DNA of 35,961 bases from a virus. The stretch is taken from positions 1 to 35,961 of the IMG/VR virus record IMGVR_UViG_3300037264_001640; one strand, 5' to 3'. A program made the translations under genes and the position numbers. Under the pieces are notes generated by a model. That model did no database searches. It worked only from the letters and a program-made list of their open reading frames with translations, and was not told where the DNA came from. This document shows positions 1,654 to 18,279 of the stretch, piece after piece; position 1 is the stretch's first letter, and each line of letters starts with the position of its first letter.

Positions 1654-3540
1654 ATGAGTGACCGGGGACAAGCAAAATTTTCAGTCATGGATTCGGTAGG
1701 GATTGAACTTAATCCCGATAAGCAGATAGGTCTTGCCCAAAAACCGGACATTCGTAAGGTTCTTCACAAAGGTAGCGATGTCGAGGAACTTGACAGCGAT
1801 ACAAAGATTGTCACTAAAGATCCTGAAGGATTGGTTCAGAGGAATATCGTAGACAAGGGTATCCTTTCGACTATCGGCAAAAAGGTCACTCAGGGGGCTA
1901 AGGCGGCAGGAGAGGGCCTTACCAAATTAGGCGAACGAGTTGCGGGTGAAGGGGGAGCAGCGGCCAAGCAGGGCGCGTCTAATGTTGCAGATATAGTTGC
2001 ACCGGGGAGCACCAGGGATGTTGTCGGTCAAGCCATGAAGAAGATAGGCAGCACGATATCCCAGAATCCCGAGGCTACTGCGGCGGCGGCGGGTGCAGGC
2101 ACGATAGGCTACATGGCCGGTGGAAGTGGCAAAGACCCTCAGTATAAAGAGGTTGAGGGTGGTATAGAAATAAAGGGCAAATTCAATCTTGCCGGGGACA
2201 GGGTTGCTCGTTCTCTCATAGGGGCGGTGCCAGGAGCGGCGGCGGGTGCTGCTGTAGGTGCGGCTACAGATCCGGTGGATGCGGTAGGAGGTGCAAAGAG
2301 GGGCGCTATATTTGGCGGAATAGGAGGAGCCACGGGAGGACTGCTTGCGAAAGTAGGAGCCGGTGGTAGAGCGGTCAGACATTTTGGTAGCACTACTCGG
2401 GACACTCTCAAAGCCGAGGCAAGAAGAATACCCAAGGCCGGTTTGGTAGGTGGTGTGATGGGCGAGGCCATACTGGACAAGGGAATAAAAAGCAAAGGAG
2501 CCCTCGATGACCCCGTTGGCTTTCTGGAGAATAAAGTCGTGAGAGCGGCGGGCAAGAAGGCCGGGGGTAAGATAGTAGGGGGAGTTCTTGCGATAGCGGA
2601 TAAGGCAAAAAATGCAATAGAAAAGGGTATAGAGACAAAAACTCTTAGGGAGCGTATTGCCAAGCGAGTTGTGGATTTCGCAAAACCTCATCTGGAGAGA
2701 ATTGCAGAGCCCACTATTCAGCGAGTAGAGAATGCTGCTCGTGGCGAAGTGGCATCACAAAGCGCGGCTATGAGGCCCCACATCGAAGCTGCGGCCAGGG
2801 ATGAGGTAGCAAAGCAGAGCGCACAGATCAGAAAGGATCTTGTGAGGGAAGTGGGAGACAAAACGAAACTTGCTACTGGTATAGGCGCAGGAGCAGGGGC
2901 AGTTGTTGGGGGGACCGCTGGGGCCTTATTGGGAAGAAAGGTTCAGGAAAAGGGGTTTATCGGCAATGCTGTCAAGAAACTGAGGGGCGTAGCTCAATCG
3001 CCATTTGAAGGCTCTGTAATGCAGGCAAGGCAACAGGCAGGCCGACATCTCAAGAAAAACATGATCTCTTCTGAAGAGAGAGCGGCAAGAGGGCACCAAA
3101 GAAAGCTTGATGATATTTTGTCTACTACTGCCGAGTTCAATGCGGCACAGGCAAGAACTGCTGAACAACGCCATCGGGATTATATGACCGGCGCTAGTGA
3201 CCGGGAAGATATGGGCAGGCGTGCCTTTTTCAATGACTTGTCTCATGAAGAAAAACGTAATTGGAATTTGGGCCATCAAGATATGGACAGTCACGATTAT
3301 CTTACAGCTAGTGGAAAGCGAATCCCAGCCAAGAAGGGGGTAGGCTCCCATCTCCTGGCCGGTGCAGCCGGTGTTGCCGGAGGGTTGGCACTTGCTCATG
3401 AAATGAATAAGCCTGAAGAGGCCGTCAGTATGCGAGGTAAGATCGAAAGAGCCGACAAAGAACACCGGAAACTTGGACCGCCGAATTTCAAAAATGTGCA
3501 TGTGCCGCTCAAGGGCCAGACCAAGACAGGTAAAAAGTAA
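1654..3540 (+). CDS. Gly/Ala-rich virion protein with glycine-zipper-like segments, function unknown
   Basis: This is a 628-residue protein I do not recognise as a named family. The start is supported by AAGGAGAAG just upstream. It has at least four Gly/Ala-rich hydrophobic stretches with small residues at regular spacing, at roughly residues 138-153, 188-235, 408-428 and 567-580. Such patterns resemble glycine zippers that pack helices or insert in membranes. Long basic, amphipathic helices lie between them, including a pair of related segments around residues 355-395 (each with EVA.QSA). The C-terminus is Lys-rich. It sits between the portal-MuF gene and the protease polyprotein, so it is probably a head-internal or ejected protein that helps DNA cross the host envelope; that role is inference. 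It could also be an assembly factor. The stop codon overlaps the next start as TAATG. Confidence 0.6.
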   Translation: MSDRGQAKFSVMDSVGIELNPDKQIGLAQKPDIRKVLHKGSDVEELDSDTKIVTKDPEGLVQRNIVDKGILSTIGKKVTQGAKAAGEGLTKLGERVAGEGGAAAKQGASNVADIVAPGSTRDVVGQAMKKIGSTISQNPEATAAAAGAGTIGYMAGGSGKDPQYKEVEGGIEIKGKFNLAGDRVARSLIGAVPGAAAGAAVGAATDPVDAVGGAKRGAIFGGIGGATGGLLAKVGAGGRAVRHFGSTTRDTLKAEARRIPKAGLVGGVMGEAILDKGIKSKGALDDPVGFLENKVVRAAGKKAGGKIVGGVLAIADKAKNAIEKGIETKTLRERIAKRVVDFAKPHLERIAEPTIQRVENAARGEVASQSAAMRPHIEAAARDEVAKQSAQIRKDLVREVGDKTKLATGIGAGAGAVVGGTAGALLGRKVQEKGFIGNAVKKLRGVAQSPFEGSVMQARQQAGRHLKKNMISSEERAARGHQRKLDDILSTTAEFNAAQARTAEQRHRDYMTGASDREDMGRRAFFNDLSHEEKRNWNLGHQDMDSHDYLTASGKRIPAKKGVGSHLLAGAAGVAGGLALAHEMNKPEEAVSMRGKIERADKEHRKLGPPNFKNVHVPLKGQTKTGKK

Positions 3541-4502
3541 TGAGAAGAGGGCCAAATACAAAAAAAATGACTCGTCTGAAGAAGGTAGATCTTCAGGCAA
3601 TGATGTTGTGGTATTCACGAGGATATCAGTGTCGTGATTTGGCTCAAGAATTTGATGTTGATTTTACTACAGTGGCATGGCGAGGAAGACAATTTAATGT
3701 TGGCGTGAAAGCCCGTAATTATTCTATGACGGCAAAAATCAGTCCTATGGAAGTAGATCTGATTGCTTATAATTATTTTCAGGGATTTAATGGCCCCGAG
3801 TTAGCAAGAGATTATGGACTTGATCGAACACGAGTCAATCAGATTGCCAAAAGTAAAAACGTGATTTGTCCCAAGATCACGTGTGACGAGAAAGTATTTG
3901 ACAAAATTGAAGACGAGATAATGGACGAGGAAACTCCCTATTGGATAGGGTTTTTGTTGGCAGATGGATGTGTATCATATACGAGCGGAAGTCCTTCTTT
4001 GTATATTTGTTTACAAGCAAGAGATAGGCAACATCTTGTGAAATTTCGGAGATTTATGAAATCTAATGCTAAAATATCATATAATAAATCGAACAATAGC
4101 CATTCAATTTTTATTGTTTCTGCACATGTTGTTGAAACCTTAGCCAAATATGGAATTCGGCCCAATAAAAGTCATAATGCCGAATGTGACGAGCGATTAA
4201 TTTGTAATCCTCATTTTTGGAGAGGATTAATTGATGGGGATGGCTGTATAGGGGAATATAGTTTTGGAACTCTTCTTCAATTGACAGGAACCGAAAAGGT
4301 TGTCATGAGCTTCCGTAATTATATAACTATGATTGTTGGTAAATATAACAAAATAAAAGAATTAATTGGGTGTTGGGAAACCAAGATTCAAGGTAAAACT
4401 GCAACACAAATGGTTCAATTTCTTTATAAGGACTCGACTATATATTTGGATCGTAAAAAAATACTTGCAGATAGAATTTGTCTACAAGGAGGTTGCGCGT
4501 AA
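3540..4502 (+). CDS. LAGLIDADG-type homing endonuclease with N-terminal HTH motifs
   Basis: The 320-residue product has two LAGLIDADG-like motifs, around residues 136-144 (IGFLLADG) and 228-236 (RGLIDGDG), each with the acidic residue expected for metal binding. This is the arrangement of a monomeric two-motif enzyme that cuts a long DNA site. Two helix-turn-helix-like segments precede it at about residues 25-52 and 75-105 and probably bind DNA. It interrupts the head genes at a boundary: its start overlaps the upstream stop, and its stop overlaps the downstream ATG, both as TAATG. Its last codons supply the AAGGAGG Shine-Dalgarno sequence of the protease gene. There is only a weak ribosome site in front of it. 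The gene is visibly richer in A/T than its neighbours, which suggests separate acquisition. It is free-standing; no intron or intein boundary is visible. Confidence 0.88.
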   Translation: MRRGPNTKKMTRLKKVDLQAMMLWYSRGYQCRDLAQEFDVDFTTVAWRGRQFNVGVKARNYSMTAKISPMEVDLIAYNYFQGFNGPELARDYGLDRTRVNQIAKSKNVICPKITCDEKVFDKIEDEIMDEETPYWIGFLLADGCVSYTSGSPSLYICLQARDRQHLVKFRRFMKSNAKISYNKSNNSHSIFIVSAHVVETLAKYGIRPNKSHNAECDERLICNPHFWRGLIDGDGCIGEYSFGTLLQLTGTEKVVMSFRNYITMIVGKYNKIKELIGCWETKIQGKTATQMVQFLYKDSTIYLDRKKILADRICLQGGCA

Positions 4503-7500
4503 TGAGCGAACGTCCTGATAAAGTCACAACTAAATTCGGTACCCTTGGCAATGTCAATGTCAAGGAGCGCACATTTGAAGCTTGGTCAAGCGTGGCCGAT
4601 GTTGACCGAGACAAAGAGTACGTACCGATTTCTGCATTTGTAGAATTGCTATCACTATATAAAGATAACCCCGTGTTATTACTCGGGCATCAGCACAAAA
4701 CTATTAGCTACGAAAGTCTTCCTATAGGCAAATGTCTTGAGATAGAACCTCGTGACGAAGGACTTTGGACAAAGTTCTATATAAGCAAAAGACCATTAGG
4801 CAATGAAGTTCTTACTCTTTTGGATGAAGGGATACTTCGCGGGCTTTCCGCTGGCTTCATTCCTGTAAAATTTATCCCTAATCCTTCTGACCATGAATTG
4901 CCTACCTATTTAAGAGGCAAGGGAATTCGTAAGTATTATCAGCAGGTTGAACTGGTTGAAATTTCTCTGCTTTCTATACCTTCTAACAGAAAGTCGTTGG
5001 TCATTCATGCTCAAAAGGGTAATCGAGTGGCCGATATGGTCATGAAGGAATTCAGGGGTGAAGATGTCACCTACGTCATCAAAGAGTGGCTGTCTGAAGA
5101 AAAGGCCGTCGATCCCTATAAAAAACACCTTTGGCTGGGATTTACGCTTCAACCAGAGGCCCGCACTACGCTGGGTAACGTGGATGTTGAGGGTAAAAAG
5201 GTTGCAGAAGAAGAACTCCACTTGACGCTTCGTTATTTTGGCGATGTCGAGAACATGGGTGACGTAGACGATGTGAGAGATGCCCTCCTGGGTCTGGAGA
5301 ATACTCTTGCGACCACGTATGAATTGAAGCCGGTTGATTACGAGATCTTCAAAGATAATTCTCTTGTGGCTCGATACAGTAATGGGGCCATTTCAGAATT
5401 GCACGAGAAAGTGAACAATCTTCTCAAGAGTAATACGTTGAATTTTCCCGAAGAATTTCCTCATCTCGATAGCCACGTTACGCTTGCAATGGGAGAGGGT
5501 CTTACTCCACCCGTCGAAAAACCGCCCTCTGCTCAAACTGGAGAGCTTCGTTTGATGTGGGGGAAGGATGAGGTCATACATAATTTTACGCCTCACCAGA
5601 TTGCTTGGAATACGTTTGTGAGTAAAGTCTTTGGATGGAACGAGTCAGAACACCCTAGAAGTGATAACGGAGAATTCTCGTCAAAGATTGGTGATATCAA
5701 TTTTGAGACAGAGAGAAATCCGCTGCCATCGCGGCCTTGGTTTTTCTCGGGTCAAGATCCGAAGCATGAAGAGATCAACAATAAGCTCGACAACATTATT
5801 GGGGGTCAGCGCGGCATTGCCACGAACGTTGAGGCAATCAAGAATCAGGATAGTTGGGGAAATTGGGCCAAAAAGTGGGTCGTGAGAATAGGAATCTTGG
5901 CAGGCGCTTACTACGGTATCAAGCATATAGCCAAATCGCCGGAGGCTCGCCAGAAGGTAGTAGGTTGGCTTAAAGATTCAGGGTTGAAGGAATTTAAAGG
6001 GGAAGATGCTACAGATAAACTTCTTCACGTCTTGGACCTTACAAAAGCCGCATTGACAAAGGGTAAATCTTTAGGAGCTACCAATACTCCTGAATACAAA
6101 AAACTGGAATCCTTTTATAATAAGGCGGTTACGTCTTTGAAGAACGTTGGAAAAACTTCCAACGTAGAAGTCAAGACAAATAAAGGACTTAGCCAATTAT
6201 GGGTTGTCACGAAAGAGATGACACCCGAGACATCAAAGGAAGATGCGACTCTTAGGAATGTTCACGGTAGATACCGGAACAAACCCGATACCTCTGGCCA
6301 GAAGAAAGTTAAAGTTGAACATGCGGACGAGGAAGTCACTGTTGCTAAGGATTGGACTGCTGAGGACGAGAGGGAGCATCCTCGTGCGCCTGAAGGTAGT
6401 TCTAGGGGTGGCGAATTTGTCAGCAAGAATGAGCCGACTTCGGAAAGTGGGGCCTGGGGTGGAGTTCGTAAAAATGCCGGTCGGACTTCCAAAAACCCAA
6501 TTATAGCAAGACAAAGGCTTGAGGAACGGTTTAAACAAGAGAACCCTGGAATCACTGATGATAAACTGAAACAAAAGATGATAGAGCATGCAGTCGAGAA
6601 GAAAAATCCCGACCTGTATCTGCATCTTACTGATCCAGGGGCTTATCAGAAAAAGCGAGAACAAGAGATTGTTGAGGCTATGGCCTCAAAGCCTAGCAGG
6701 AATAAGGTTCGTGGCCAAGCAATAGAAAAAATTGATGACCCTGCCGGTACGTCGGTGGTTCTTAACGACATAAAGACTACAAGGGCGGCTTGGAATAGGG
6801 AGCTAACCCAGGCAAAAGATGTTCACGAAGCCTGGAAAACGTTTCACGAAAAAGATCCCGAAGAACTTGACTTGGCTAGGGCCAAACTTATTACTGCCGC
6901 AGCAAGTGTAGCCACTCTTGTTGGTCTGGGTGTTCTTCTTGCGAAGAGGCCAAACCTTAGATCTGCTGGATTCAAATTCCTTCCTGGGGCCGAAAGTGGT
7001 AGCGCCCTTCCTATGGACGCTAAAACTGGCCTAGTAGATTTTTTTGTTAGAGATCACCCTACTTGGGTGAGGTTCTTTAAGAATTTGGGTATTGAAGGAG
7101 AGCACTCAGCCAAAGCGGCAGGCATGGGCGATGTGGTTTATGATAGGGAAATAGGCGCATTGAGAAAATGGGCAGCGAAAAAACTCAATGTGAAAGATCC
7201 CAAGACGGGCGAATTACTCTATCCCTTTGCTGGACCTAAACTTACGGGATATGGTCCTGGCTCACGTTATGGCATCAAAGACTACCATACCATAAATGGC
7301 ATGTCGTCTAATTATGTTCCAACGCCTGGGGATGCCAATGAATATGGTGATATCCTCGTTACGCAATTAAGAGAGAAAATAGCCAGAGAAGGGAAGGCCA
7401 CGGCGGCTGAACAGGTTGGGTGGGATTATGTCAACTTGGCCATTGCTTTAAAAAGGTTGCCTAAAAATCCTCGTGAATGGCGAGGACCGCACCCTCCTGG

Positions 7501-9049
7501 CCTGCGTATAGCAACAGACGAAAAGGGGAAAGCATATTGGACATATAAGGGTGGTGTTTCGAGTAGAGAAGGCATTTCTCAAAGATTGGCCGCAGAGCCC
7601 AAAGTAAGCCCTTCTGGCAATATAGATACCGACAAGGCGGCTGCAAAAGCGAAGTTGGTCACGGGCGAAAGTATTTTTAAGAAATACCTTGCCGGGGACA
7701 TTAAGGGTGGCGGTAAATTCAATCGAATGTCAAATGAGGCTATATTGGACAAAAACACTCTTTTGCCAATAAGAAAGCCTTCAAAAGTTTTGCGACCTAT
7801 TCCAGACGAAGCGAAGACGGCGTTTAACGCAAAGGCCGAAGCGTACAAGAGCAATGCTCATGCCTTCACGAAAAATATTTTGCCCCAACTGAGTGGTCGC
7901 GCATTGGGCATGCTTACTGTCACATCTGGAGTAGCGGGCGTTGCTGGAGCGGCTGAAGGTATTTATTACTTCCAACAAGACATCGAGAGATACCTTTCTG
8001 GTTACTTTAAGCATAAAGAAGAGCAGGCGAAAGCCGCTGCTGTAGAAACCCCTGGTTCAAAACAGACCGAAGCCGAGAGGGTAAAGGCTCAAATGGCGCT
8101 TCTCAAGCAGCAACAAAAGCTTGCAGAAGCCCAAGGCAATGCTGCTGAACGCAAAACGATTCTTGAAGATCGACGTGCCAAACTTAGACAAGAACTTGTT
8201 GATATGGGCGTTAGAAGATATGCCGAGGGTGCAGTGCCTATGTGGGCTGCGAATCCCGAAACGTTCTTTCGCCGCTTGCACGATACCGGAATGCTTGAAA
8301 ACGAAAGCGATATCCGCAGAGTCAGTGAGATTATGCTTGGTGAAGATAGAAGAAAAGCAGCAAGATTAATCGAAGAATTAGATGGAATGCCGCTTACGAG
8401 GAATCGCGGTTGGTGGAAGAAGTGGGATCAGCAAACTTGGGACGAGAAGGCCAAGGGAACGTTTTGGGAGCAGGAAGGGTACACTGAGAGTGATTACCAT
8501 AAAGCTCAACGTGAGGCTCGCGAGAATGCCAAGAAGGCAAAAGCCGAGGGAGAAGCGGGAACAAAGGGCGCAAGTGGTTTGGATCTAATTATCAAAATGT
8601 TTGAGCCCTCAGAGACTACACCTCTGGCTATTACATTCAAGGCTATCGAGATAAAAGAAGATGAGCCCTTTAATGAAGAGAAGTTTCAAGATGATGCGAT
8701 CACTGCTCTGGCCGAACATATTGCCAGGATGATTTCGGATATATCGCAGAGTTGTAAGACGGTGATTCGGGCTGGGATGCCTGGGATGTCGGAATACGTG
8801 GAACTTAATAACATTGTTACGGAAATCTATGCATATCTGAAAGACGTTGTGAAAAATTCACCTCAAGAAGTTTCCCAAAAGGGCTTTGAAAATGTAATGA
8901 GCAGTCAGGTCGATGCGGGCGGCGGTCTTTTCGCGGAACCAAGACGTTGCCGGATTTGTGGGCAGACGGTTACAGAAGGCTTAATCCTGAAATGCAAGAA
9001 GGCCGGATGTCCCTTCAGTTTTCTGGAAAAGATCGAGAATAAGGATTGA
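4502..9049 (+). CDS. Prohead protease polyprotein with 2H-phosphoesterase-like domain and C-terminal zinc ribbon
   Basis: The product has 1515 residues, against ~200 for a usual prohead protease. The ATG is chosen because AAGGAGG lies 9 bases upstream; an in-frame TTG at 4478 lacks such a site. Residues ~10-172 match the HK97 prohead protease family (U35/S78), with H63 in LLGHQH, S116 in GLSAGF and an acidic residue in LVEISLLSIP as likely active-site residues. This enzyme matures the capsid. Residues ~208-332 look like a 2H phosphoesterase (LigT/ThpR type), with HLTL at 240 and HVTL at 325. Two HPR...G.F motifs follow near 384 and 625, then GAWGGVRKNAGR. Hydrophobic segments occur near 455-475, 800-820 and 1135-1160, then a Lys/Glu/Gln coiled coil. 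The end carries SQVDAGGGLF and a zinc ribbon (C1483, C1486, C1498, C1503). The middle is unrecognised and is probably cleaved and packaged or ejected; that is inference. Confidence 0.85.
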   Translation: MSERPDKVTTKFGTLGNVNVKERTFEAWSSVADVDRDKEYVPISAFVELLSLYKDNPVLLLGHQHKTISYESLPIGKCLEIEPRDEGLWTKFYISKRPLGNEVLTLLDEGILRGLSAGFIPVKFIPNPSDHELPTYLRGKGIRKYYQQVELVEISLLSIPSNRKSLVIHAQKGNRVADMVMKEFRGEDVTYVIKEWLSEEKAVDPYKKHLWLGFTLQPEARTTLGNVDVEGKKVAEEELHLTLRYFGDVENMGDVDDVRDALLGLENTLATTYELKPVDYEIFKDNSLVARYSNGAISELHEKVNNLLKSNTLNFPEEFPHLDSHVTLAMGEGLTPPVEKPPSAQTGELRLMWGKDEVIHNFTPHQIAWNTFVSKVFGWNESEHPRSDNGEFSSKIGDINFETERNPLPSRPWFFSGQDPKHEEINNKLDNIIGGQRGIATNVEAIKNQDSWGNWAKKWVVRIGILAGAYYGIKHIAKSPEARQKVVGWLKDSGLKEFKGEDATDKLLHVLDLTKAALTKGKSLGATNTPEYKKLESFYNKAVTSLKNVGKTSNVEVKTNKGLSQLWVVTKEMTPETSKEDATLRNVHGRYRNKPDTSGQKKVKVEHADEEVTVAKDWTAEDEREHPRAPEGSSRGGEFVSKNEPTSESGAWGGVRKNAGRTSKNPIIARQRLEERFKQENPGITDDKLKQKMIEHAVEKKNPDLYLHLTDPGAYQKKREQEIVEAMASKPSRNKVRGQAIEKIDDPAGTSVVLNDIKTTRAAWNRELTQAKDVHEAWKTFHEKDPEELDLARAKLITAAASVATLVGLGVLLAKRPNLRSAGFKFLPGAESGSALPMDAKTGLVDFFVRDHPTWVRFFKNLGIEGEHSAKAAGMGDVVYDREIGALRKWAAKKLNVKDPKTGELLYPFAGPKLTGYGPGSRYGIKDYHTINGMSSNYVPTPGDANEYGDILVTQLREKIAREGKATAAEQVGWDYVNLAIALKRLPKNPREWRGPHPPGLRIATDEKGKAYWTYKGGVSSREGISQRLAAEPKVSPSGNIDTDKAAAKAKLVTGESIFKKYLAGDIKGGGKFNRMSNEAILDKNTLLPIRKPSKVLRPIPDEAKTAFNAKAEAYKSNAHAFTKNILPQLSGRALGMLTVTSGVAGVAGAAEGIYYFQQDIERYLSGYFKHKEEQAKAAAVETPGSKQTEAERVKAQMALLKQQQKLAEAQGNAAERKTILEDRRAKLRQELVDMGVRRYAEGAVPMWAANPETFFRRLHDTGMLENESDIRRVSEIMLGEDRRKAARLIEELDGMPLTRNRGWWKKWDQQTWDEKAKGTFWEQEGYTESDYHKAQREARENAKKAKAEGEAGTKGASGLDLIIKMFEPSETTPLAITFKAIEIKEDEPFNEEKFQDDAITALAEHIARMISDISQSCKTVIRAGMPGMSEYVELNNIVTEIYAYLKDVVKNSPQEVSQKGFENVMSSQVDAGGGLFAEPRRCRICGQTVTEGLILKCKKAGCPFSFLEKIENKD
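6144..6165. repeat. Dispersed palindrome, copy 1 (variant centre)
   Basis: Arms ACGTTGGAA (6144-6152) and TTCCAACGT (6157-6165) flank a 4-base AAAC centre. The arms match the other copies at 13962, 18897 and 31183 except that one centre base differs (C for T). It lies inside the protease polyprotein and encodes VGKTSN. Confidence 0.8.
8916..8933 (+). repeat. 18-bp segment shared with the capsid gene (copy 1)
   Basis: The sequence CGGGCGGCGGTCTTTTCG occurs here and again at 11362-11379. It encodes GGGLF in both places, within the wider pattern VM.SQ.D.GGGLF. In the capsid protein it lies at the usual delta-domain boundary. Confidence 0.85.
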
Positions 9050-9052
9050 CCC

Positions 9053-10933
9053 ATGAAAAAGAAGGTCATACGACGCAAAGAAAAGATTGTGAAGAAAGAA
9101 GTTTCTAGTGTAGGAGCGCTTGGTCAAATTGGCGTTCCAGCTAGTGTGATTGATACGCCGACCAACTCGCTTCCCGGTCAACCTTTTTCTACGCCACAAA
9201 CTACAATGGGCCATTGGCCCTCTCCTAATTTGTGGTACGCGCAAGGGAAGGCCGCTGCAAAAAAAGCTTATTATGAATATCTAGGACTCCTCAATCAATA
9301 TACTGGCGCTCCTCCTGATCAAGCCGACAGAAAACTTCAACTTGCGGGGCAGATGAATAATATCATCGTGTCAATGATTCAAGGGGTGACGATAGGACTT
9401 GAAGCCGAAGAGACTGCGGCAAAGAGGGCCAGAATAGGGGATGCGGCAGGTGTCATCGAAAAAGAGGTTATTGCGGATACTCTTCAGAAGATGTTGAAGG
9501 TCATTTGGATTCACGATACCGCAGCGTATTCTCAGAAGTTTGCTGGTCTTGATGTGCAGGCTATCGAATCTTCAGTTACAGGGCGCTTGAATCGAGTTAA
9601 TGATTGGGAAGTTACAGAGGTAGGAATTCCGCTATTGACCGCCCAAGAGGCAGATACGCTTTGGATTGAAGACCCCTTAGCTGCCCCCATTGATGATCCT
9701 GCGATGATTAATCAGATCCCAGGAGAGGGCGCTGATACGGGGGGGACTGCACCGAATGACCTTGAGGCCCCTGCTGGTCAAGAAGATTTGATGTCTTCAG
9801 GTGAAGTGCCGCCGCCCGAAAATGAGGCGGCAAATGCCTTTTCAGATAACACGGAACGAAGCGTAACGGATACCGATACAACTGATACCCCGCAAGAAGG
9901 GGGTGAAGAAATTCCCGAAGAAGCAATGCAGGGCTTTCTAGGAGAGCCCGAGGAGGATATAGACATGTCTGGACCCAATCATGACCTGAAGGTGGCCTGG
10001 GTGGATTTCATTGATCAGAATCCCGAGATAGCTGCCCAATTACTCGAAGAAGCCACGGCTGGAGGGGGAGAGGTCGTTGATGAAGGTTCAGAGATGACAT
10101 CTCCTGATGAGAATACGGCCCTTGAGACAGAAGAGACACCCGAGGAAGGTGAAGAAATTGTCGAGGGTGAAGAAGAGGTTATTCCTCCCGAGGAAGGTGA
10201 AGAGGTGGTCGAAGGCGAGGAGGAAGTAGTCCCCCCCGAGGAAGGCGAAGAGGTTGTTGAGGGCGAGGAAGAGGTTGTTCCTCCCGAGGAAGGCGAAGAC
10301 AAGGTGGTTGCCGCAGAGGATATACCCGAGGGCGAAGAGGTAGTTGTGGATGAAGACGAGCCCGAAACTGTTTATTGCGTAGGGTGCGATAAGGACGTGA
10401 CGGAAGAGGAAATCGCGGCTTGCGAGAATCCTGATTGCCCCTACAAGCAAGAAGAGGAAGTTGTGGAAGAGAAGGGCGTGCAGGATGATAAGGCGACAGA
10501 AAATAAGGGCGTGCAGGATGACGAGGTAACCGAGAAACACTTCATCCTTCTGGATCATGATGACCACTGCGATTGTCGCACTCACGGAATTAAAGTGAAG
10601 GAGTTCACGGGGGTAGAGGGCGAGTATTGCCTAGATCACACTAAGCTCGTCTCTTATTCTTTTGATCAGGGCATCTGGAGTTCTGCTGATGCAGCGGCCT
10701 GGGTGAAGAAACAATTCGCAATCAACAAAAAGAAAAACAAGACCGCCGAAGAAATTGTCAACGAGAAAATTGACAATATTGACGAGGTAGTCTTAAAAGA
10801 GTTCCTACAAGGTAAAGAATCCGATCCTGAAGAAATAGAGGTAGATTTCGACATGATCGGAAGAGTTGTTGACAACGCTATGAATAGAGCACTAGGGCCT
10901 TTGAATGAACGGCTCAAAGAACTTGAAGCATAA
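9053..10933 (+). CDS. Acidic repeat protein upstream of the capsid gene, possible scaffold or capsid-associated protein
   Basis: This 626-residue protein is not a family I recognise. The N-terminal ~200 residues are helical and mixed in charge. Residues ~230-435 are very rich in Glu and Asp and hold three near-perfect 16-residue repeats (PEEGEEVVEGEEEVVP). A zinc ribbon follows with C442, C445, C457 and C462, spaced exactly as in the end of the upstream polyprotein. Two KGVQDD repeats come next, then a His/Cys-rich patch (HDDHCDCRTHG) and a helical tail. The last ~21 residues align without gaps to residues 17-37 of the capsid protein delta domain and end in the same ELEA. Start and stop lie tightly between the polyprotein (3-base gap) and the capsid gene. 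A scaffold or chaperone role in head assembly is inferred from position, acidity and the coiled-coil match; DNA mimicry is another option. Confidence 0.6.
   Translation: MKKKVIRRKEKIVKKEVSSVGALGQIGVPASVIDTPTNSLPGQPFSTPQTTMGHWPSPNLWYAQGKAAAKKAYYEYLGLLNQYTGAPPDQADRKLQLAGQMNNIIVSMIQGVTIGLEAEETAAKRARIGDAAGVIEKEVIADTLQKMLKVIWIHDTAAYSQKFAGLDVQAIESSVTGRLNRVNDWEVTEVGIPLLTAQEADTLWIEDPLAAPIDDPAMINQIPGEGADTGGTAPNDLEAPAGQEDLMSSGEVPPPENEAANAFSDNTERSVTDTDTTDTPQEGGEEIPEEAMQGFLGEPEEDIDMSGPNHDLKVAWVDFIDQNPEIAAQLLEEATAGGGEVVDEGSEMTSPDENTALETEETPEEGEEIVEGEEEVIPPEEGEEVVEGEEEVVPPEEGEEVVEGEEEVVPPEEGEDKVVAAEDIPEGEEVVVDEDEPETVYCVGCDKDVTEEEIAACENPDCPYKQEEEVVEEKGVQDDKATENKGVQDDEVTEKHFILLDHDDHCDCRTHGIKVKEFTGVEGEYCLDHTKLVSYSFDQGIWSSADAAAWVKKQFAINKKKNKTAEEIVNEKIDNIDEVVLKEFLQGKESDPEEIEVDFDMIGRVVDNAMNRALGPLNERLKELEA
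10139..10300 (+). repeat. Tandem 48-bp coding repeats (acidic)
   Basis: Three full 48-bp units (10139-10186, 10187-10234, 10235-10282) and a partial fourth encode PEEGEEVVEGEEEVVP with few changes. Synonymous third-position differences between units show that the protein repeat is kept while the DNA drifts. The copy number may vary among relatives. Confidence 0.9.
10472..10521 (+). repeat. Two-copy 33-bp coding repeat (KGVQDD)
   Basis: AAGGGCGTGCAGGATGA occurs at 10472-10488 and again at 10505-10521, a 33-bp period within the acidic protein gene. It encodes KGVQDD twice, joined by a short Thr/Glu linker. Confidence 0.8.
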
Positions 10934-10961: not shown

Positions 10962-12254
10962 ATGGCTACTATGACTGCTGAAGAGATGGAGAAAAAACTT
11001 ACCGATAAGGTTGCGAATAGCGTGGCAATCGCGACAAAGGGCATTTCCGACAGGCTTACCGAACTGGAAGCCCATAAGCCTACGACCCTTCATCACGGCA
11101 CGGACGTAATGGACGATGGCCACGTTCAGGATGTTGGACACAACATGTTCCGACTTCCTGGTGGGTCCGTGGTCAACGTGGGTCGGATGTGGAATTCGGT
11201 CGGCAAGGGCTTCCGCAGATGCCCCGGCGTGTTCGAGAAGCTTGGCGAGGACAGCAAAGAGTTCTTTGTCAAGATGAAGGAACACCTGGAAGCGACCAAC
11301 ACGTTCAAGGTCAAGACTAAGGCGCTCGACATTGGCGACGTTATGCGGAGCCAGGAAGACTCGGGCGGCGGTCTTTTCGTGCCGGAAGACGTAAGGTACG
11401 CTTTGTTACAGTTCGCACCGCCAGGGACCATCGTATGGCCCCGCGCGCAGGTCTGGCCGATGTCAACCCAAACCATCCAATGGCCCAAGCTGAAACAGAG
11501 CTTGGTGGATGGCGAAGAAGAATTTTTCGGCAACGTTGTGATGCATTGGACGGAGGAAGGTCGCGAGAAGACCGATACCCGTCCGAAGTTCGGCCAGATT
11601 GGCCTCACCTGTCACGAACTCAGCGCATACACCGAGATCACCGACATCTTGATCGAGGACAGTGCGATCAACATTGGGAACTTGCTCGTGCAATTGTTCC
11701 AGGGGTCGTACTGGCACTACACCGACCGCTCCTTCTTGCGCGGCATGGGAAATGTGCAGCCTCTTGGCGTGTTGAACGACCCGAAGATCAGGGTTGTGAA
11801 GCGCTGCGAAGCAGACAAGCTTCGTTACGAAGACTTCATCAACATGTCCACCGAACTGCCCCCGATGTTCGATGCGGGCGCATGCTGGTTCATGACGAAG
11901 GGTGCCTTCAACAGTCTGCGTAAGCAGAAAGACAATGACGGCCATCCCGTGATTCAGTTGGGTGAAGGCTACAACAATTTCGGGGAAGGGATCGCAGGAT
12001 ATATCCTGGGTTATCCCGTTGTCATGGCCGATTACAAGGTCAACAAGCTGGGCCAGAGGGGCGATGTTCTCTTAGGTGACTGGAAACATTACTTTATTGG
12101 TGAGCGCAGCGGTGTGAAGATGGAAATGTCTCGCCACACCGCGTTCGAGTTCAACCGAACTGCGTTCCGTGCCAGCGCCCGTCTTGGCGGCATCCCCGAG
12201 GAAGCGAATGCTTTCGTCGTGATGTCTGACGAAGTTGACGAGGACCAGAGCTAG
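10962..12254 (+). CDS. Major capsid protein, HK97 fold
   Basis: The 430-residue product forms the icosahedral shell. The start follows AAGGAG with normal spacing. Residues 1 to ~130 are a helical, charged delta domain of the kind that acts as a built-in scaffold and is removed by the prohead protease. The segment SQEDSGGGLFVPE near 129-141 is the usual start of the mature HK97-type chain, leaving ~300 residues, close to the size of mature HK97 gp5. Later segments (an aromatic, Pro-rich strand, then the GYPVVMADYK region and the closing strand with FRASARLGG) fit the A-domain and P-domain of this fold. The gene is richer in G/C and in C-ending codons than most of the window, as often seen in very highly expressed genes. 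The family is clear; the exact cleavage point is inferred. Confidence 0.92.
   Translation: MATMTAEEMEKKLTDKVANSVAIATKGISDRLTELEAHKPTTLHHGTDVMDDGHVQDVGHNMFRLPGGSVVNVGRMWNSVGKGFRRCPGVFEKLGEDSKEFFVKMKEHLEATNTFKVKTKALDIGDVMRSQEDSGGGLFVPEDVRYALLQFAPPGTIVWPRAQVWPMSTQTIQWPKLKQSLVDGEEEFFGNVVMHWTEEGREKTDTRPKFGQIGLTCHELSAYTEITDILIEDSAINIGNLLVQLFQGSYWHYTDRSFLRGMGNVQPLGVLNDPKIRVVKRCEADKLRYEDFINMSTELPPMFDAGACWFMTKGAFNSLRKQKDNDGHPVIQLGEGYNNFGEGIAGYILGYPVVMADYKVNKLGQRGDVLLGDWKHYFIGERSGVKMEMSRHTAFEFNRTAFRASARLGGIPEEANAFVVMSDEVDEDQS
11362..11379 (+). repeat. 18-bp segment shared with the protease polyprotein (copy 2)
   Basis: This is identical to 8916-8933 and encodes the GGGLF at residues 135-139 of the capsid protein, at the boundary between delta domain and mature chain. 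Confidence 0.85.
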
Positions 12255-12977: not shown

Positions 12978-13874
12978 ATGGCAGAAGAAAAAGTTTTAGT
13001 AAAATACATAGATTCAGCCCTTGCCGCGCAAAACGGTAGTCAGTCCTTTAGAATGGGATTGCATCTTGCTAGACAATGGGAAGATAAGGGTTGGATTAGG
13101 ATTCTTGACAAGATCGCAAGAGCAAATCCTTCCGTGCCAATTGACAAAGATGAAGTCAGAAACACCCCTCTCATAAAGATGCTAGAAGAAGAGAACCTAA
13201 CGAAGATCGCCTGGGTAACGAGCGATTACATTGATGCTGCTGTCAGAAAAGTGGGAGCGCAATGTGGATTCCAGGTTGAACATTTTTCGGCTTCGGTATT
13301 CAGTTCTGGCCTTCTCATGAAAACAAAATTGATGATTGTAGAGTCCAACATGAAAGGATTCACCCCCGGTCAGCTTGAAAATCTTCGTTGCATCCAATTT
13401 CAAAAGGGTATTCCTTTCATCTTTAGAATCGTCGGTTATGATGGTTCCGAGTTTTTTCAGCAAGGGCTTATTCATTCAAGACTGAATGTCTTTGCTTCGG
13501 CACAGCTTTTCGAGTACGCATGCGATCTTCACGAAAACCTCATAGAACCCTGGTTCATTGAAAGCAAATCAGATCATTTCGCTTTTTGGAGAGCGATAGA
13601 AGGGGCATTAAACGTAAAGCCAAAAGAGGCAGAGAATGGAGGTTTTTATATTCCTCCCGCCGTCAGAGCATCCCTTCTTACTTTTGAACCTCCTCCCAAT
13701 ACGCCGGTTACGGTTGAATTTGAAACCAGAATGCTCGAAGGACCAATAGAAAACATCCACAAGAATGAGACGGCAACGGACGCTCGTAGCGCTGAATATC
13801 AAGCCGAATTACAAAGGCAGAGACGGAAAGGGGGCACGAAGAATAGGGTGGTTAGACGGAGGAAAAGTGAATGA
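12978..13874 (+). CDS. Unrecognised protein heading the glycosyltransferase operon
   Basis: The product has 298 residues. The ATG follows GAGGAGG at good spacing. I do not recognise the family. The central part, ~residues 70-200, alternates short hydrophobic strands and helices in a Rossmann-like way. It includes PFIFRIVGYDGSEFF, which resembles the strand and loop pattern in N-terminal halves of GT-B glycosyltransferases, but no donor-site motif is visible, so this is weak. The C-terminal ~40 residues are very rich in Arg and Lys (RQRRKGG, RRRKSE) and could bind nucleic acid or acidic glycans. It overlaps the next gene by 4 bases (ATGA), so it is co-translated with a GT2-like enzyme. It is most likely part of the same modification pathway, perhaps as a partner or divergent transferase. 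Confidence 0.55.
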   Translation: MAEEKVLVKYIDSALAAQNGSQSFRMGLHLARQWEDKGWIRILDKIARANPSVPIDKDEVRNTPLIKMLEEENLTKIAWVTSDYIDAAVRKVGAQCGFQVEHFSASVFSSGLLMKTKLMIVESNMKGFTPGQLENLRCIQFQKGIPFIFRIVGYDGSEFFQQGLIHSRLNVFASAQLFEYACDLHENLIEPWFIESKSDHFAFWRAIEGALNVKPKEAENGGFYIPPAVRASLLTFEPPPNTPVTVEFETRMLEGPIENIHKNETATDARSAEYQAELQRQRRKGGTKNRVVRRRKSE

Positions 13875-14665
13875 AAATCCTCACGGCCATTTTTTCATGC
13901 TCAAAAAATCTGCCTTACTTCTTCAAATCATTAGAATATTGGGACAAGGCCATGCAAAAAGCGTTGGAAATTTTTCCAACGATGGAATCCGAACTTCTCG
14001 TGATCGACTTCTCGGAGGACAACTGTAAAGAACTTCAGGCAGTGAAGGGCCGCTACAACTTCAAGCCCCAAGCCGGTTTTGGAAAAAATTTCAATGCAGC
14101 ATGGACATATGCCTTTTTTGGAGCTTTTGATTTTCTCATCAACTTCAATGACGATGCGATAATTTCAGAACAATTTATCTCGGAAGGACTAAAGCTTTTT
14201 GAGAGAGGAAAGGATATAGGCATGGTGGGGGGAATCCCCAACACAGGCTCCTGGTGTTCCTCTTTAGATCTCTTGAGCATTCCAGCGCCTACTAATGAAC
14301 TCGCGCTTGTCGATCCTATGGTGCAATTGAAGTGGGAGTGTTCGGCAGCGATTTATCGGGTAGAGGCGATTCTGCAAACAGGGAAGTGGGATGAAAGATT
14401 TGACATAGGTGGATCGGGGGTTTGTGGGGACAATGATTATTACATTCGGATGATAAAGGCCGGACGGACATTATTCCGATCAGGTCAAATGCGATTTTGG
14501 CATGCCAAGGGAATAACACAAAGTAGAGTAAGGATTCCCCTTCGAGGAAGGCCCGATCCTATAAAAGAAGCCAATTATGCATATTTGGCGAGCAAGTGGG
14601 GAATTAATAGAGAGGGCATGAAGATCGAAGATCTTTATCAAGCCCCCTTTAATGCTGGTGCATAA
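13871..14665 (+). CDS. GT2-like (GT-A fold) glycosyltransferase
   Basis: The 264-residue product resembles family 2 glycosyltransferases, which move a sugar from a nucleotide donor to an acceptor in the cytoplasm. The N-terminus (MKILTAIFSCSKNLPYFFKSL) is the usual first strand and helix. NDD at residues 93-95 is the DxD-like metal and nucleotide-binding motif. GDNDYYIRMIKAG near 186-198 fits the acidic catalytic segment, and FWHAKG at 209-214 fits the C-terminal His motif. There is no membrane segment. It overlaps the gene before it by ATGA and the gene after it by TAATG, so all three are translationally coupled. A palindrome (13962-13981) lies inside the coding region. The donor sugar and acceptor cannot be read from the sequence. 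Confidence 0.8.
   Translation: MKILTAIFSCSKNLPYFFKSLEYWDKAMQKALEIFPTMESELLVIDFSEDNCKELQAVKGRYNFKPQAGFGKNFNAAWTYAFFGAFDFLINFNDDAIISEQFISEGLKLFERGKDIGMVGGIPNTGSWCSSLDLLSIPAPTNELALVDPMVQLKWECSAAIYRVEAILQTGKWDERFDIGGSGVCGDNDYYIRMIKAGRTLFRSGQMRFWHAKGITQSRVRIPLRGRPDPIKEANYAYLASKWGINREGMKIEDLYQAPFNAGA
13962..13981. repeat. Dispersed palindrome, copy 2 (inverted centre)
   Basis: Arms CGTTGGAAA (13962-13970) and TTTCCAACG (13973-13981) flank a 2-base centre TT. It is the reverse-complement orientation of the copies at 18897 and 31183, and lies inside the GT2-like gene. Confidence 0.85.
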
Positions 14666-16293
14666 TGAAGCTTACAATTTCAGTGCTTTTTTATGGCAAG
14701 CCTGACGTTTCACGGAAATTTCTTCAGTATCTTGAGCCTGGGTTGAAGAACAGACCGGACGTAGAGGTGATCATAAGAGATAATGGCTGCATAGGAATGG
14801 AACAGTCCGCCTCTGCCGTTCTCACAGCCGACATCAAGAACATTGTCTACATACCTTCTGGCATCAATTTGGGGTTTGGCGCAGGACACAATGAGAACCT
14901 CAAACTCGCCCGAGGGGAATTTTTTCTCTGTATGAATAATGATCTATTTATGCAGGACAATTCCTGGGTAAACAAGCTTCTTATGGCCTTTAGTAATGGC
15001 GGCAATGCCAGCCTTGTAGGACTTCAAGGAGTGCCCTGCGAGCTTCAATCCAATATGAGAACTCTCTATATCGAAGGCAAAAAGGGGGATCGCCTAGATT
15101 ACATAGAGGGTGCTTTTTTTTGCGGCCGTACCAAAGATTTTCAAAAGTATGGCCTTTTCAGTCCTGCTTTCAAGATTGGCCTATTTGAAGACGGTGACTT
15201 GTCTTTGCGTTTTAAACAGATGGGATTTGAAATTTCGGTTTTGAAAATTGCCCATCAACACTTGCGGGCTCAATCTCTTAGTCTTTTTTCTGCTGAAGAG
15301 AGGGAAAGAATAGCAGACTATAACTGTGAAATCTTCAAGAAGCGCTGGGGAACATACATGCAGAATCAAAGGTTTGCTAATCGAGTTCTTATAAAGGCTG
15401 AAAGCGCAGGCATAGGGGATATTCTCGCCATCACTCCGGTTGTAGAGGCGGTACGCCGGGATCATCCTACAGCTATAATTGAAGTAACCACATCATGCCC
15501 CGATCTCTTTATCAATAATAAGCACCTGACGGAACTCTATAAAACAAAAAGAGAATATCCCAATAGTTACGATAGGGTTGTCGATCTCAAAATCAATTAT
15601 GCTTCCTATGAGCCGATGGTTAAAGAAGCGGAAAGAGTGGCGGTGACGAAATTCAATTCGTATCTACCTCAAATTTTTTTGACAAAATTGGAATTAGAAG
15701 AGGGGCGCAAGGTTGTCGAGTCAGTAAGGAGAGGAGAAGGCCAAACGGTAGTCGGCGTTCAATTACAAAACAATCGCCCTGCCTGGGAAGGAAAATCGTG
15801 GGATTTTCAACATATTGCTCCTCTTATTAAGATGATTCAGGGTATCGACAGTAGCACGGTTATTGAATTCGGTAAAGACGTTCAGAGTAGTGGAGAGGCT
15901 GATCTCGATTTAGTAAATCAAACGGATTTGCGCGAATACCTCGCAATAGTGGCTAATTTAGATGTGATGGTGTGCATTGATAGTCTTCCGTTGCATGCTA
16001 GTCAAGCCTTTGGCATTCCTACATTTTGCATTTTTGGAGCAACGAGCCCGTTAGGATACGTCATTGATTGGAAGACTGTTTTTCCTATTCAGTGTCCTGA
16101 TCTCGAATGCCTTGGTTGCTATCAGCGCAAAGGAGATTCGGGTTTTAATAAGTGCGCCGTGGGGTTTCAACACTGTATGCATGATTTGTCACCCGAACGA
16201 GTGTTTGAGACTCTTGTGACAGACAGAGACATTCTCTTGGAAAGAAATATTGAATATCTTTCAAAGCATTTGCAGTATAGTGGTCCTGAGTAA
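14665..16293 (+). CDS. Two-domain glycosyltransferase (GT2-like plus GT9-like)
   Basis: The 542-residue product fuses two transferases. Residues 1 to ~235 are a GT2 domain of the rhamnosyltransferase kind: NLGFGAGHNENLKLARG at 68-84, the metal-binding NND at 91-93, and FEDGDLSLRFKQMG at 174-187. Residues ~239-530 resemble GT9 heptosyltransferases: GIGD at 249-252 near the start, an IDSLPLHASQAFG segment, FGATSP, and a Cys-rich end (CPDLECLGC...C......C) before LSPERVFETL. GT9 enzymes normally build LPS core; in a phage this one could modify a virion protein or alter a host glycan. It starts in a TAATG overlap with the GT2-like gene. A homing endonuclease gene follows after 4 bases. The domain calls are firm; the substrates are unknown. 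Confidence 0.87.
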   Translation: MKLTISVLFYGKPDVSRKFLQYLEPGLKNRPDVEVIIRDNGCIGMEQSASAVLTADIKNIVYIPSGINLGFGAGHNENLKLARGEFFLCMNNDLFMQDNSWVNKLLMAFSNGGNASLVGLQGVPCELQSNMRTLYIEGKKGDRLDYIEGAFFCGRTKDFQKYGLFSPAFKIGLFEDGDLSLRFKQMGFEISVLKIAHQHLRAQSLSLFSAEERERIADYNCEIFKKRWGTYMQNQRFANRVLIKAESAGIGDILAITPVVEAVRRDHPTAIIEVTTSCPDLFINNKHLTELYKTKREYPNSYDRVVDLKINYASYEPMVKEAERVAVTKFNSYLPQIFLTKLELEEGRKVVESVRRGEGQTVVGVQLQNNRPAWEGKSWDFQHIAPLIKMIQGIDSSTVIEFGKDVQSSGEADLDLVNQTDLREYLAIVANLDVMVCIDSLPLHASQAFGIPTFCIFGATSPLGYVIDWKTVFPIQCPDLECLGCYQRKGDSGFNKCAVGFQHCMHDLSPERVFETLVTDRDILLERNIEYLSKHLQYSGPE

Positions 16294-16297
16294 GAAA

Positions 16298-16927
16298 ATG
16301 CGAAAGCTTAACCTCATAGACCAAAAATTTACAAGACTCACTGTGGTTCTTGAAGCGGGAAGGGACAAGTCGGGGCATATTCTTTATCACTGTATTTGCG
16401 ACTGCGGAGAGCCGCGTATTGTTAGCGGTAGTGATCTCAAGGGTGACATAATTCAAAGTTGTGGCTGTCTTGCTAAAGAAAACCTAATTCAGAGAAACAC
16501 TACTCATGGCATGTATCATTCAAGAGAAAATGGTGTGCGGAAAGCTATGATCGCAAGATGCACTAACCCCAATCATCCTGATTGGGAAAATTACGGTGGT
16601 CGTGGCATTAAGATTTGCGACAGGTGGAGATATTCCTTTGAAAATTTTTATACTGACATAGGGCCGATTCCTCCTGGCATGACGATAGATCGAAAAGATA
16701 ATGACGGAGACTATGAACCAAATAATTGGAGGTTTGCCACTAGGAAAGAGCAAGCAAATAATACAAGGAAAAATCATATCATCAAACACGATAACGAAGA
16801 ATTAACCATTTCTCAGTGGGCTGACAAAAAGAGAGTTTCGCGTAAAACTCTCACTTGCAGAAAACAACGAGACTGGTCTGATGAACGGGCTTTAACCACT
16901 TCTGTTCAAAGAAGAAAGGCGGCATAA
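16298..16927 (+). CDS. HNH/AP2-type homing endonuclease (copy 1)
   Basis: The 209-residue product belongs to a common phage family. An N-terminal Cys module (CICDCG...SCGCL at about 33-58) probably binds zinc. The core holds YGGRGIKICDRW and then TIDRKDNDGDYEPNNWRF.T..EQANN, an HNH/AP2-like nuclease signature. The end (LTISQWADKKRVSRKTL..R...WSDERAL) is a DNA-binding repeat found in homing enzymes. The ATG at 16298 is chosen because the open frame upstream lies wholly inside the GT2-GT9 gene. There is no clear Shine-Dalgarno sequence, and translation probably depends on the stop 5 bases upstream. The stop overlaps the next start as TAATG. It interrupts the glycosyltransferase operon and is a paralogue of 17662-18279. 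Canonical catalytic His residues are not all evident, so activity is not certain. Confidence 0.82.
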   Translation: MRKLNLIDQKFTRLTVVLEAGRDKSGHILYHCICDCGEPRIVSGSDLKGDIIQSCGCLAKENLIQRNTTHGMYHSRENGVRKAMIARCTNPNHPDWENYGGRGIKICDRWRYSFENFYTDIGPIPPGMTIDRKDNDGDYEPNNWRFATRKEQANNTRKNHIIKHDNEELTISQWADKKRVSRKTLTCRKQRDWSDERALTTSVQRRKAA

Positions 16928-17655
16928 TGAGACTCACTTCTACTGCTGTTGAGGTGCCCTTGGATGAGGGCCTTGTTTCAATTTTGGCAGATCTTTTCGC
17001 AAAAACGCCGAGGATCAAAGCTGTTATAGAAACGGGAACGTATCAGGGCACCGGGACTACTCAGATAGTTATTGAGGCCGTAAAAAAAATGTTCAAAGAG
17101 CATCCAAAGATTAGTAAAAAACCAGCGGCCTATACAATAGAGGCAAGTGAAAAGAACTACCTGATTGCCAAAAACAATCTAAAGCAGCACGATTGGATCA
17201 CTGTCATTCACGGCTGCTCCCTGGATCTTGGAGATTGTAAGAAATTCATAGAGGAGGACGATGCCATACTTCATCATGAAGATTATCCTGATATCTTTAT
17301 TGATAGTCACGAGCCCGTGGATTTTTATACGAAGGAAATTGCGGGACAACTCTTCGGGAAAGGTGGAGTGGGGACGGATAATGTTCTGGCGCGACTAATT
17401 CCTGATATCTGGAAGATGCGACCATTGTTCATTTTGGATTCGGCGGGTGGCGTAGGCTGGAAGGAGTTTCAGACGGTTGTTGAGCTTATGCAGGATAGAT
17501 TATACTATGTATTTGCTGATGATTGCGCCCATTTGAAGCACTTTCGGACAAAAGCTTACATGAAACATTGTCAATGGCCTATTTTAGCAGAAGACTCAAA
17601 CGGTCGATGGATATTGGCCCAACATCCTGGGAGGACAGGAAATCCTAATTGGTAA
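16927..17655 (+). CDS. SAM-dependent methyltransferase-like protein
   Basis: The 242-residue product has a Rossmann-type N-terminal half. IETGTYQGTGTTQ (34-46) matches the glycine-rich motif I that binds S-adenosylmethionine. YTIEASEKNYLIAKNNL (69-85) matches motif II with an acidic residue at the end of strand 2, followed by ITVIHGCSLDL, a motif III-like strand. DIFIDSH (near 118-124) and FILDSAGGVGW further on may form the active-site loops. Such proteins in glycosyltransferase clusters often methylate sugars, so a sugar O-methyltransferase is the favoured guess, though a protein or small-molecule methyltransferase is possible. The start overlaps the homing gene stop as TAATG, and an AAAGG-like ribosome site lies in the homing gene end. 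Six bases separate it from the second homing endonuclease. Confidence 0.7.
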   Translation: MRLTSTAVEVPLDEGLVSILADLFAKTPRIKAVIETGTYQGTGTTQIVIEAVKKMFKEHPKISKKPAAYTIEASEKNYLIAKNNLKQHDWITVIHGCSLDLGDCKKFIEEDDAILHHEDYPDIFIDSHEPVDFYTKEIAGQLFGKGGVGTDNVLARLIPDIWKMRPLFILDSAGGVGWKEFQTVVELMQDRLYYVFADDCAHLKHFRTKAYMKHCQWPILAEDSNGRWILAQHPGRTGNPNW

Positions 17656-17661
17656 TAAAGA

Positions 17662-18279
17662 ATGCCAAAGTTCATTGATTTGACTAACGAAACCTTTGGG
17701 CGCTTATTTGTGTTATGGCAATATGAAGAACGAGATAAGTTTGGATATCGTCTTTGGGTTTGTCTTTGCGAATGTGGTGAGCAAAAACTTGTTACAAGTA
17801 GTAACCTACTTAATGGTTCAACTCGAAGTTGTGGTTGTCTTCGTAAGGAACGACCCACTCGTCTTGTTCATGGTATGAGTAAAACTAAAGAGCACCATAT
17901 ATGGCGTAGTATGATAGTTCGCTGTTACAATTCTCAAGGCCCACATAAAGATTATGGGGCTCGGGGAATCAAAGTCTGTGACCGATGGCTTGGGCCTAAA
18001 GGCTTTGAGAATTTCTTCGCTGACATGGGCAAATGCCCCTTTGGCTTAACGCTGGAACGAAAAGACGTAAATGGAGATTACAACCCCGACAATTGTTGTT
18101 GGGCAACTAGAGAACAGCAAGCGAACAATAGAAGGACAAGTCGTTTTATCGAACATAATGGAGAAAAATTGACATTTGCCCAATGGGAAAGGAAAAAAGG
18201 ACTTACGAGAGGCATTCTTCATTATAGAAAGAAGGCTGGCTGGTCTGATGAAAGGGCTCTCGCCCCAGGATGCGTGTAA
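17662..18279 (+). CDS. HNH/AP2-type homing endonuclease (copy 2)
   Basis: The 205-residue product has the same layout as the protein at 16298: an N-terminal Cys module (CLCECG...SCGCL), YGARGIKVCDRW, then LERKDVNGDYNPDNCCWATREQQANNRR and a C-terminal LTFAQWERKKGLTRG....R...GWSDERAL repeat. The two copies are clearly related but diverged along their whole length, so they arose by old duplication or separate arrivals. The ribosome site is weak. The stop is in a TAATG overlap with the GT9-like gene, and an AGGA in the last codons can serve as its ribosome site. It sits between the methyltransferase-like gene and the GT9-like gene, so the pair of homing genes brackets the methyltransferase-like gene exactly. 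Confidence 0.83.
   Translation: MPKFIDLTNETFGRLFVLWQYEERDKFGYRLWVCLCECGEQKLVTSSNLLNGSTRSCGCLRKERPTRLVHGMSKTKEHHIWRSMIVRCYNSQGPHKDYGARGIKVCDRWLGPKGFENFFADMGKCPFGLTLERKDVNGDYNPDNCCWATREQQANNRRTSRFIEHNGEKLTFAQWERKKGLTRGILHYRKKAGWSDERALAPGCV

Follow-up and report, generated by a model that had tools for sequence, protein, structure and literature searches.

A single 1,515-residue open reading frame (ORF) of the viral record IMGVR_UViG_3300037264_001640 was found to join an S78 prohead protease to a 2H phosphoesterase domain, with the latter occupying a slot between the protease and a long conserved backbone. The content of this slot differs among related phages, one of which carries a Pnkp-type phosphatase in the equivalent position. 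What is new here is this exchange; the architecture itself is a variant of fusions already known. The exchange suggests that the capsid machinery has a built-in cargo slot. Our preferred interpretation, to which we give a little less than an even chance, is that the gene encodes a cargo-slot polyprotein from which the 2H domain is cut free, packaged and injected to open cyclic phosphate ends of RNA.

Organization of the polyprotein gene and its neighborhood

The window (the whole stretch of DNA analyzed, a linear viral record 35,961 bases long) encodes a block of head genes and ends in an apparent tape-measure gene, as judged by eye. The features used below are as follows.

75-1643: portal-MuF protein
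1654-3540: scaffold-like ORF
3540-4502: LAGLIDADG ORF (PHROG endonuclease match, E 1e-38)
4486-4492, plus strand: Shine-Dalgarno sequence AAGGAGG, read directly and separated by 9 bases from the ATG at 4502
4502-9049, plus strand: polyprotein gene, 1515 aa ORF
4529-5017, plus strand: S78 prohead protease domain, residues 10-172, with H63, S116, and E153 (Pfam PF04586)
5045-5047, plus strand: K182, candidate cleavage site MVMK/EF between protease and slot; the lysine is conserved in all five relatives
5114-5596, plus strand: 2H phosphoesterase domain that fills the slot, residues ~205-365 (profile, AF2, and Foldseek)
5219-5230, plus strand: first HxT motif, HLTL, residues 240-243
5474-5485, plus strand: second HxT motif, HVTL, residues 325-328
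5624-5680, plus strand: linker from K375, FVSK/VFGWNES-EHPR..NGEF; candidate cleavage after K375, with EHPR next
5687-9046, plus strand: conserved polyprotein backbone, with a strongly hydrophobic segment at residues 796-814 (hydropathy)
6347-6418, plus strand: second EHPR linker, from K616, AK/DWTAEDER-EHPR..GGEF
9053-10933: further ORF after the polyprotein gene
10962-12254, plus strand: major capsid protein, HK97 type (Pfam PF05065, 6.6e-39)

The protease assignment of the first-pass annotation, which had pointed to H63, S116, and an LVEISL context, was borne out: LVEISL was located at residue 151, and Peptidase_S78 (PF04586) scored above its cut-off of 21 bits both on the whole protein (residues 25-169, 29.6 bits, E 8.8e-7) and on the isolated stretch (34.4 bits, E 2.9e-8). 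To the catalytic His and Ser we add E153 as an acidic third, triad-like residue, and all three were invariant in an alignment of five related phages. The gene is positioned between the portal-MuF and capsid genes, as is typical of a prohead protease.

A divergent 2H domain follows the protease

The earlier reading of a 2H domain behind the protease on the same polypeptide also proved correct, including the positions of its motifs (HLTL at 240, RYFGDV at 244, and HVTL at 325). Its proposed end at residue 332 was found to be wrong; the domain extends to about residue 365, because two more strands come after the second motif. By the curated profile, Pfam LigT_PEase, the window domain was detected at an E-value of 0.001 when isolated and 0.06 within the whole protein (14.0-19.6 bits), which is below the cut-off of 23.3, while most of its aligned relatives pass a 2H profile. 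Since such a cut-off marks a limit of detection and is not a trait, membership in the 2H superfamily was instead judged from (i) the fold; (ii) the motifs; and (iii) a custom profile.

Relatives were gathered by scanning viral contigs for the pattern H[hydrophobic]TLxYFGD, which returned ten real 2H proteins; a narrower HLTLRYFGD-type pattern gave no matches, and a direct search with the 2H domain in viral contigs and phages retrieved no close relative. Nine of these phage 2H domains, leaving out that of the window, were combined into a profile, which matched the whole polyprotein at an E-value of 6.8e-12, compared with 0.5 for the best of 200 shuffles. Because the search pattern includes the first motif, every protein it retrieves must have that motif, and the half after the first motif was therefore tested separately; in the isolated domain it matched at a profile E-value of 0.002. 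When aligned with nine relatives, the window domain was found to have two HxT/S motifs. The position after the second motif is M in the window domain versus arginine in the cellular enzymes, in which the second motif reads HxTLxR.

That the domain is catalytically dead and retained for a structural role appears very improbable. In favor of this reading, the window domain is a divergent member of the alignment, sharing 15-23% identity with the remaining sequences, and S precedes its second His where every other aligned 2H has P; all four HxT catalytic residues are, however, retained.

The predicted fold is closest to LigT/ThpR and CPDase

The structure prediction called for by the first-pass annotation was performed with AlphaFold (AF2). 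When supplied with the ten-sequence alignment, AF2 returned a model of the 2H domain with a pLDDT of 85 and a pTM of 0.80, whereas the model made without the alignment was poor and uninformative (pLDDT 51); the fold call thus leans on the relatives. Foldseek matched the aligned model to 44 PDB entries under an E-value of 1e-3, all of them 2H-superfamily proteins going by their descriptions. The predicted structure displays the duplicated 2H arrangement and, as a model, confirms that the domain has a genuine 2H fold.

The best of these matches were the D. radiodurans CPDase (7.8e-8) and E. coli LigT (about 5e-7), followed by rotavirus VP3 (3e-6), Acb1 (7t26, 7.8e-5), and Usb1 (7e-4), with AKAP18 and coronavirus ns2 also matched. 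Profile comparison gave a similar order, with E-values of 2e-9 for LigT/ThpR/CPDase and 0.01 for Acb1. Of the two kinships suggested earlier, the one with LigT/ThpR is therefore the nearer, as seen from the Foldseek values, and that with Acb1 is weaker. The cellular LigT/ThpR and CPDase enzymes (E. coli LigT 5ldi and D. radiodurans 5h7e) have the fold and both HxT motifs in common with the window domain but are stand-alone proteins, with 14-20% identity to it.

These comparisons bear on a serious rival, in which the delivered 2H domain would destroy nucleotide second messengers (the cyclic oligonucleotides of CBASS, the oligoadenylates of type III CRISPR, or 2'-5' linked signals) in the manner of Acb1 (T4 and FBB1; PMC9117128). 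Acb1 is likewise a phage protein, with the 2H fold and an HxT/HxT tetrad, and several Acb1 proteins were among the structure matches in BFVD. Some of the aligned 2H relatives match the Acb1 profile (best 2.5e-7), and two of the fold matches, rotavirus VP3 and coronavirus ns2, are 2'-5' phosphodiesterases. Signal degradation has in addition been proposed for 2H domains on MuF/portal proteins (PMC5512222). The window domain itself, however, has no match to the Acb1 profile PF23474 at an E-value of 0.05 and is structurally closer to LigT/CPDase; we consider this rival rather unlikely.

A further alternative, in which the injected 2H domain is a Usb1-like RNase that attacks host RNA, is quite improbable in our estimate. 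Such a role has been suggested in the literature, where polyvalent proteins with 2H were likened to PBECR RNase fusions (PMC5512222), and Usb1 structures are present among the fold matches, but they rank well below LigT.

Protease-2H fusions in other phages

Fusion of such a domain to the capsid protease had been regarded as uncommon. It is not unique to the window, as cultured actinophages were found to carry a 2H domain and an XkdF-type capsid protease (Peptidase_S78_2) in one protein. In Edmundo gp18 (QGJ88092.1), ValentiniPuff gp7 (AYD87311.1), and Ottawa gp87 (WIC89319.1), a 2H domain is followed by XkdF, with both above their Pfam cut-offs. Like the window gene, these proteins have both domains in one chain and are encoded within a head gene cluster; they differ in that the 2H domain is N-terminal of the protease and in that they are about 370-390 aa in length and have no long backbone. 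In the metagenomic L043, ChaB, 2H, and XkdF are combined, and L041 joins a 2H domain to a match to a PHROG head maturation protease. As the fusion recurs in unrelated phages and in reversed order relative to the window, it has arisen or persisted more than once. The same 2H-protease gene was observed under differing public labels in Arthrobacter phages Laroye, LiSara, Salgado, and Edmundo (gene 18), namely aldolase class I, RNA ligase, and capsid maturation protease.

Related arrangements are also described in the literature, including 2H on MuF/portal proteins (Iyer et al. 2017, PMC5512222) and Nudix on a capsid-processing serine peptidase (PMC9503650). These polyvalent proteins and MuF/portal-2H fusions resemble the window polyprotein in having a 2H domain; they are virion-associated and thought to be injected, as the window polyprotein may be. 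The window differs in that its carrier is an S78 prohead protease and that the slot content is swapped between relatives. Polyvalent proteins combine several effector domains in a virion protein encoded among head genes; in the window polyprotein, one effector domain was recognized next to the protease.

The direct fusion to an assembly protease could also mean that the 2H domain acts during head assembly or late in infection and not after injection, with the fusion setting only its amount or place. Genes for 2H proteins do stand as separate neighbors of capsid protease genes, as in Gordonia phage Nubi, in which the protease gene adjoins a 2H gene annotated as 'RNA ligase'. However, the 2H domain is missing from two close relatives of the window phage (L004 and L005, see below) and so is not needed for assembly, which renders such a role quite doubtful.

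Candidate cleavage sites flank the slot

An EHPR..(D/N)G(K/E)F-like motif was detected in two or three copies per phage polyprotein, compared with fewer than 0.01 expected per protein by shuffling. In all 13 of the EHPR linkers from five phages, a lysine is located 8-11 residues upstream, mostly with T or S before it; these 13 cases are homologous repeats and hence not independent. The lysine motif was also considered as a polyprotein-wide signal and was dropped, as 6 occurrences compared with 3.8 expected is no clear enrichment and only its position is telling.

The HK97 capsid protein is cut after a lysine. In the window capsid protein, K120 (VKTK/ALD, codon 11319-11321) is invariant, has a V.TK/A-like context across the capsid proteins, and stands just before the conserved shell domain; from its sequence context, it is likely the delta-domain cleavage site. 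Consistent with this position, the 103-residue scaffold domain of the HK97 capsid protein ends at a place that matches the capsid lysine (PMC10275583). Because the linker lysines resemble this invariant capsid lysine, we infer that the protease may cut both the capsid protein and the linkers. Release of the 2H domain by its fused protease, as the first-pass annotation envisaged, is plausible on this sequence evidence.

A separate resemblance was noted between the C-terminus of the polyprotein (window about 8909-8947) and the capsid N-arm (VMSSQVDAGGGLF versus VMRSQEDSGGGLF). In L003, the best local alignment of polyprotein C-terminus and capsid fell at the same capsid site and scored above all 100 shuffles; the window alignment did not.

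The slot content is exchanged among related phages

Four related phages (L002 to L005) were reached through the capsid protein, with 54-63% identity in this protein, and were found to have the same gene block; a search of bacterial and archaeal genomes with the capsid alignment found no relative. Comparison by tblastn and alignment revealed a polyprotein backbone common to all five phages, for which Pfam and the PDB provided nothing reliable. The slot lies between the protease and this backbone, with common flanks KEW... and NWDESEHPR; when protease and 2H were aligned jointly in 12 sequences, both domains came out misaligned, and the alignment was used only for these flanks in the five phages. 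L003 encodes its protease in an ORF of its own. The L002 slot encodes a HAD_PNKP phosphatase (E 1.3e-22) with the motif FDLDGT (DxDGT type) and about 40% identity to phage 3'-phosphatase/5'-kinase enzymes, the slot of L005 has only a short spacer, and no recognizable enzyme domain was detected in that of L004. As the slot content differs among related phages, the 2H domain is an exchangeable insert; the exchange for a Pnkp-type domain was seen in one relative only.

The T4 Pnkp 3'-phosphatase domain, the counterpart of the L002 insert, is unrelated in fold to 2H and missing from the window but carries out an identical chemical step when RNA is repaired. According to a review, 2',3'-cyclic phosphates are cleared by either the T4 Pnkp DxDxT phosphoesterase or the 2H domain of yeast and plant ligases as alternatives (PMC3400036). 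Of the two functions named in the first-pass annotation, RNA-end repair is therefore favored over the disarming of nucleotide signals, because the 2H and Pnkp-type domains share one slot. It is hard to see what a Pnkp phosphatase would do against cyclic oligonucleotides, and, being an enzyme that processes ends and not a nuclease, it also speaks against an injected RNase.

The reading we prefer, early RNA end-healing, would proceed as follows. The gene would encode a head-assembly polyprotein composed of the S78 prohead protease, the cargo slot, and the long conserved backbone. During head maturation, the protease would cut at a lysine on either side of the slot (near K182 and K375), and the resulting 2H fragment of ~193 residues would stay inside the head and enter the cell together with the DNA. 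There it would open the 2',3'-cyclic phosphate ends that anticodon nucleases of the host and other metal-independent RNases of this kind leave behind, which would be a first step of RNA healing. Several observations count against this reading: (i) no RNA ligase or kinase was seen in the 36-kb window fragment; (ii) a published survey never saw RNA ligases in association with polyvalent 2H proteins (PMC5512222); (iii) the Pnkp exchange is known from a single relative; (iv) the lysine motif is not clearly enriched over the polyprotein; and (v) M replaces the arginine of the cellular second motif.

More tentatively, and with clearly less confidence, we propose that the protease is a carrier for swappable cyclic-phosphate enzymes that are self-released and injected, such that RNA repair precedes phage gene expression. 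If so, one gene would couple capsid maturation to the delivery of counter-defense enzymes, and the slot content would be predictable from sequence. Two unrelated enzymes of one chemical step at one position provide a direct and testable clue to the substrate, a clue that bears on the large class of phage 2H proteins labeled RNA ligase or Acb1 by default.

Other features of the window and its relatives

The polyproteins of L002 and L004 have additional inserts with HExxH metallopeptidase-like motifs (LLMHEYAHS and LLMHEWGHA), with no match in Pfam. The LAGLIDADG ORF at 3540-4502 lies in a low-GC stretch with the scaffold-like ORF on one side and the polyprotein gene on the other; in L002 to L005 it is missing, and the scaffold-like gene directly adjoins the polyprotein gene. 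The ORF at 1654-3540 has segments that resemble glycine zippers as well as several [VI]xKG repeats, with similar Lys-Gly motifs in the upstream ORFs of the relatives. Zinc-ribbon-like CxxC...CxxxxC motifs are similar between the polyprotein C-terminus and the ORF at 9053-10933. Finally, the region at 13871-19244, inside the structural gene cluster, encodes glycosyltransferases of the GT2 and GT9/heptosyltransferase types (Pfam), among which HNH-like ORFs, recognized by eye, are interspersed.
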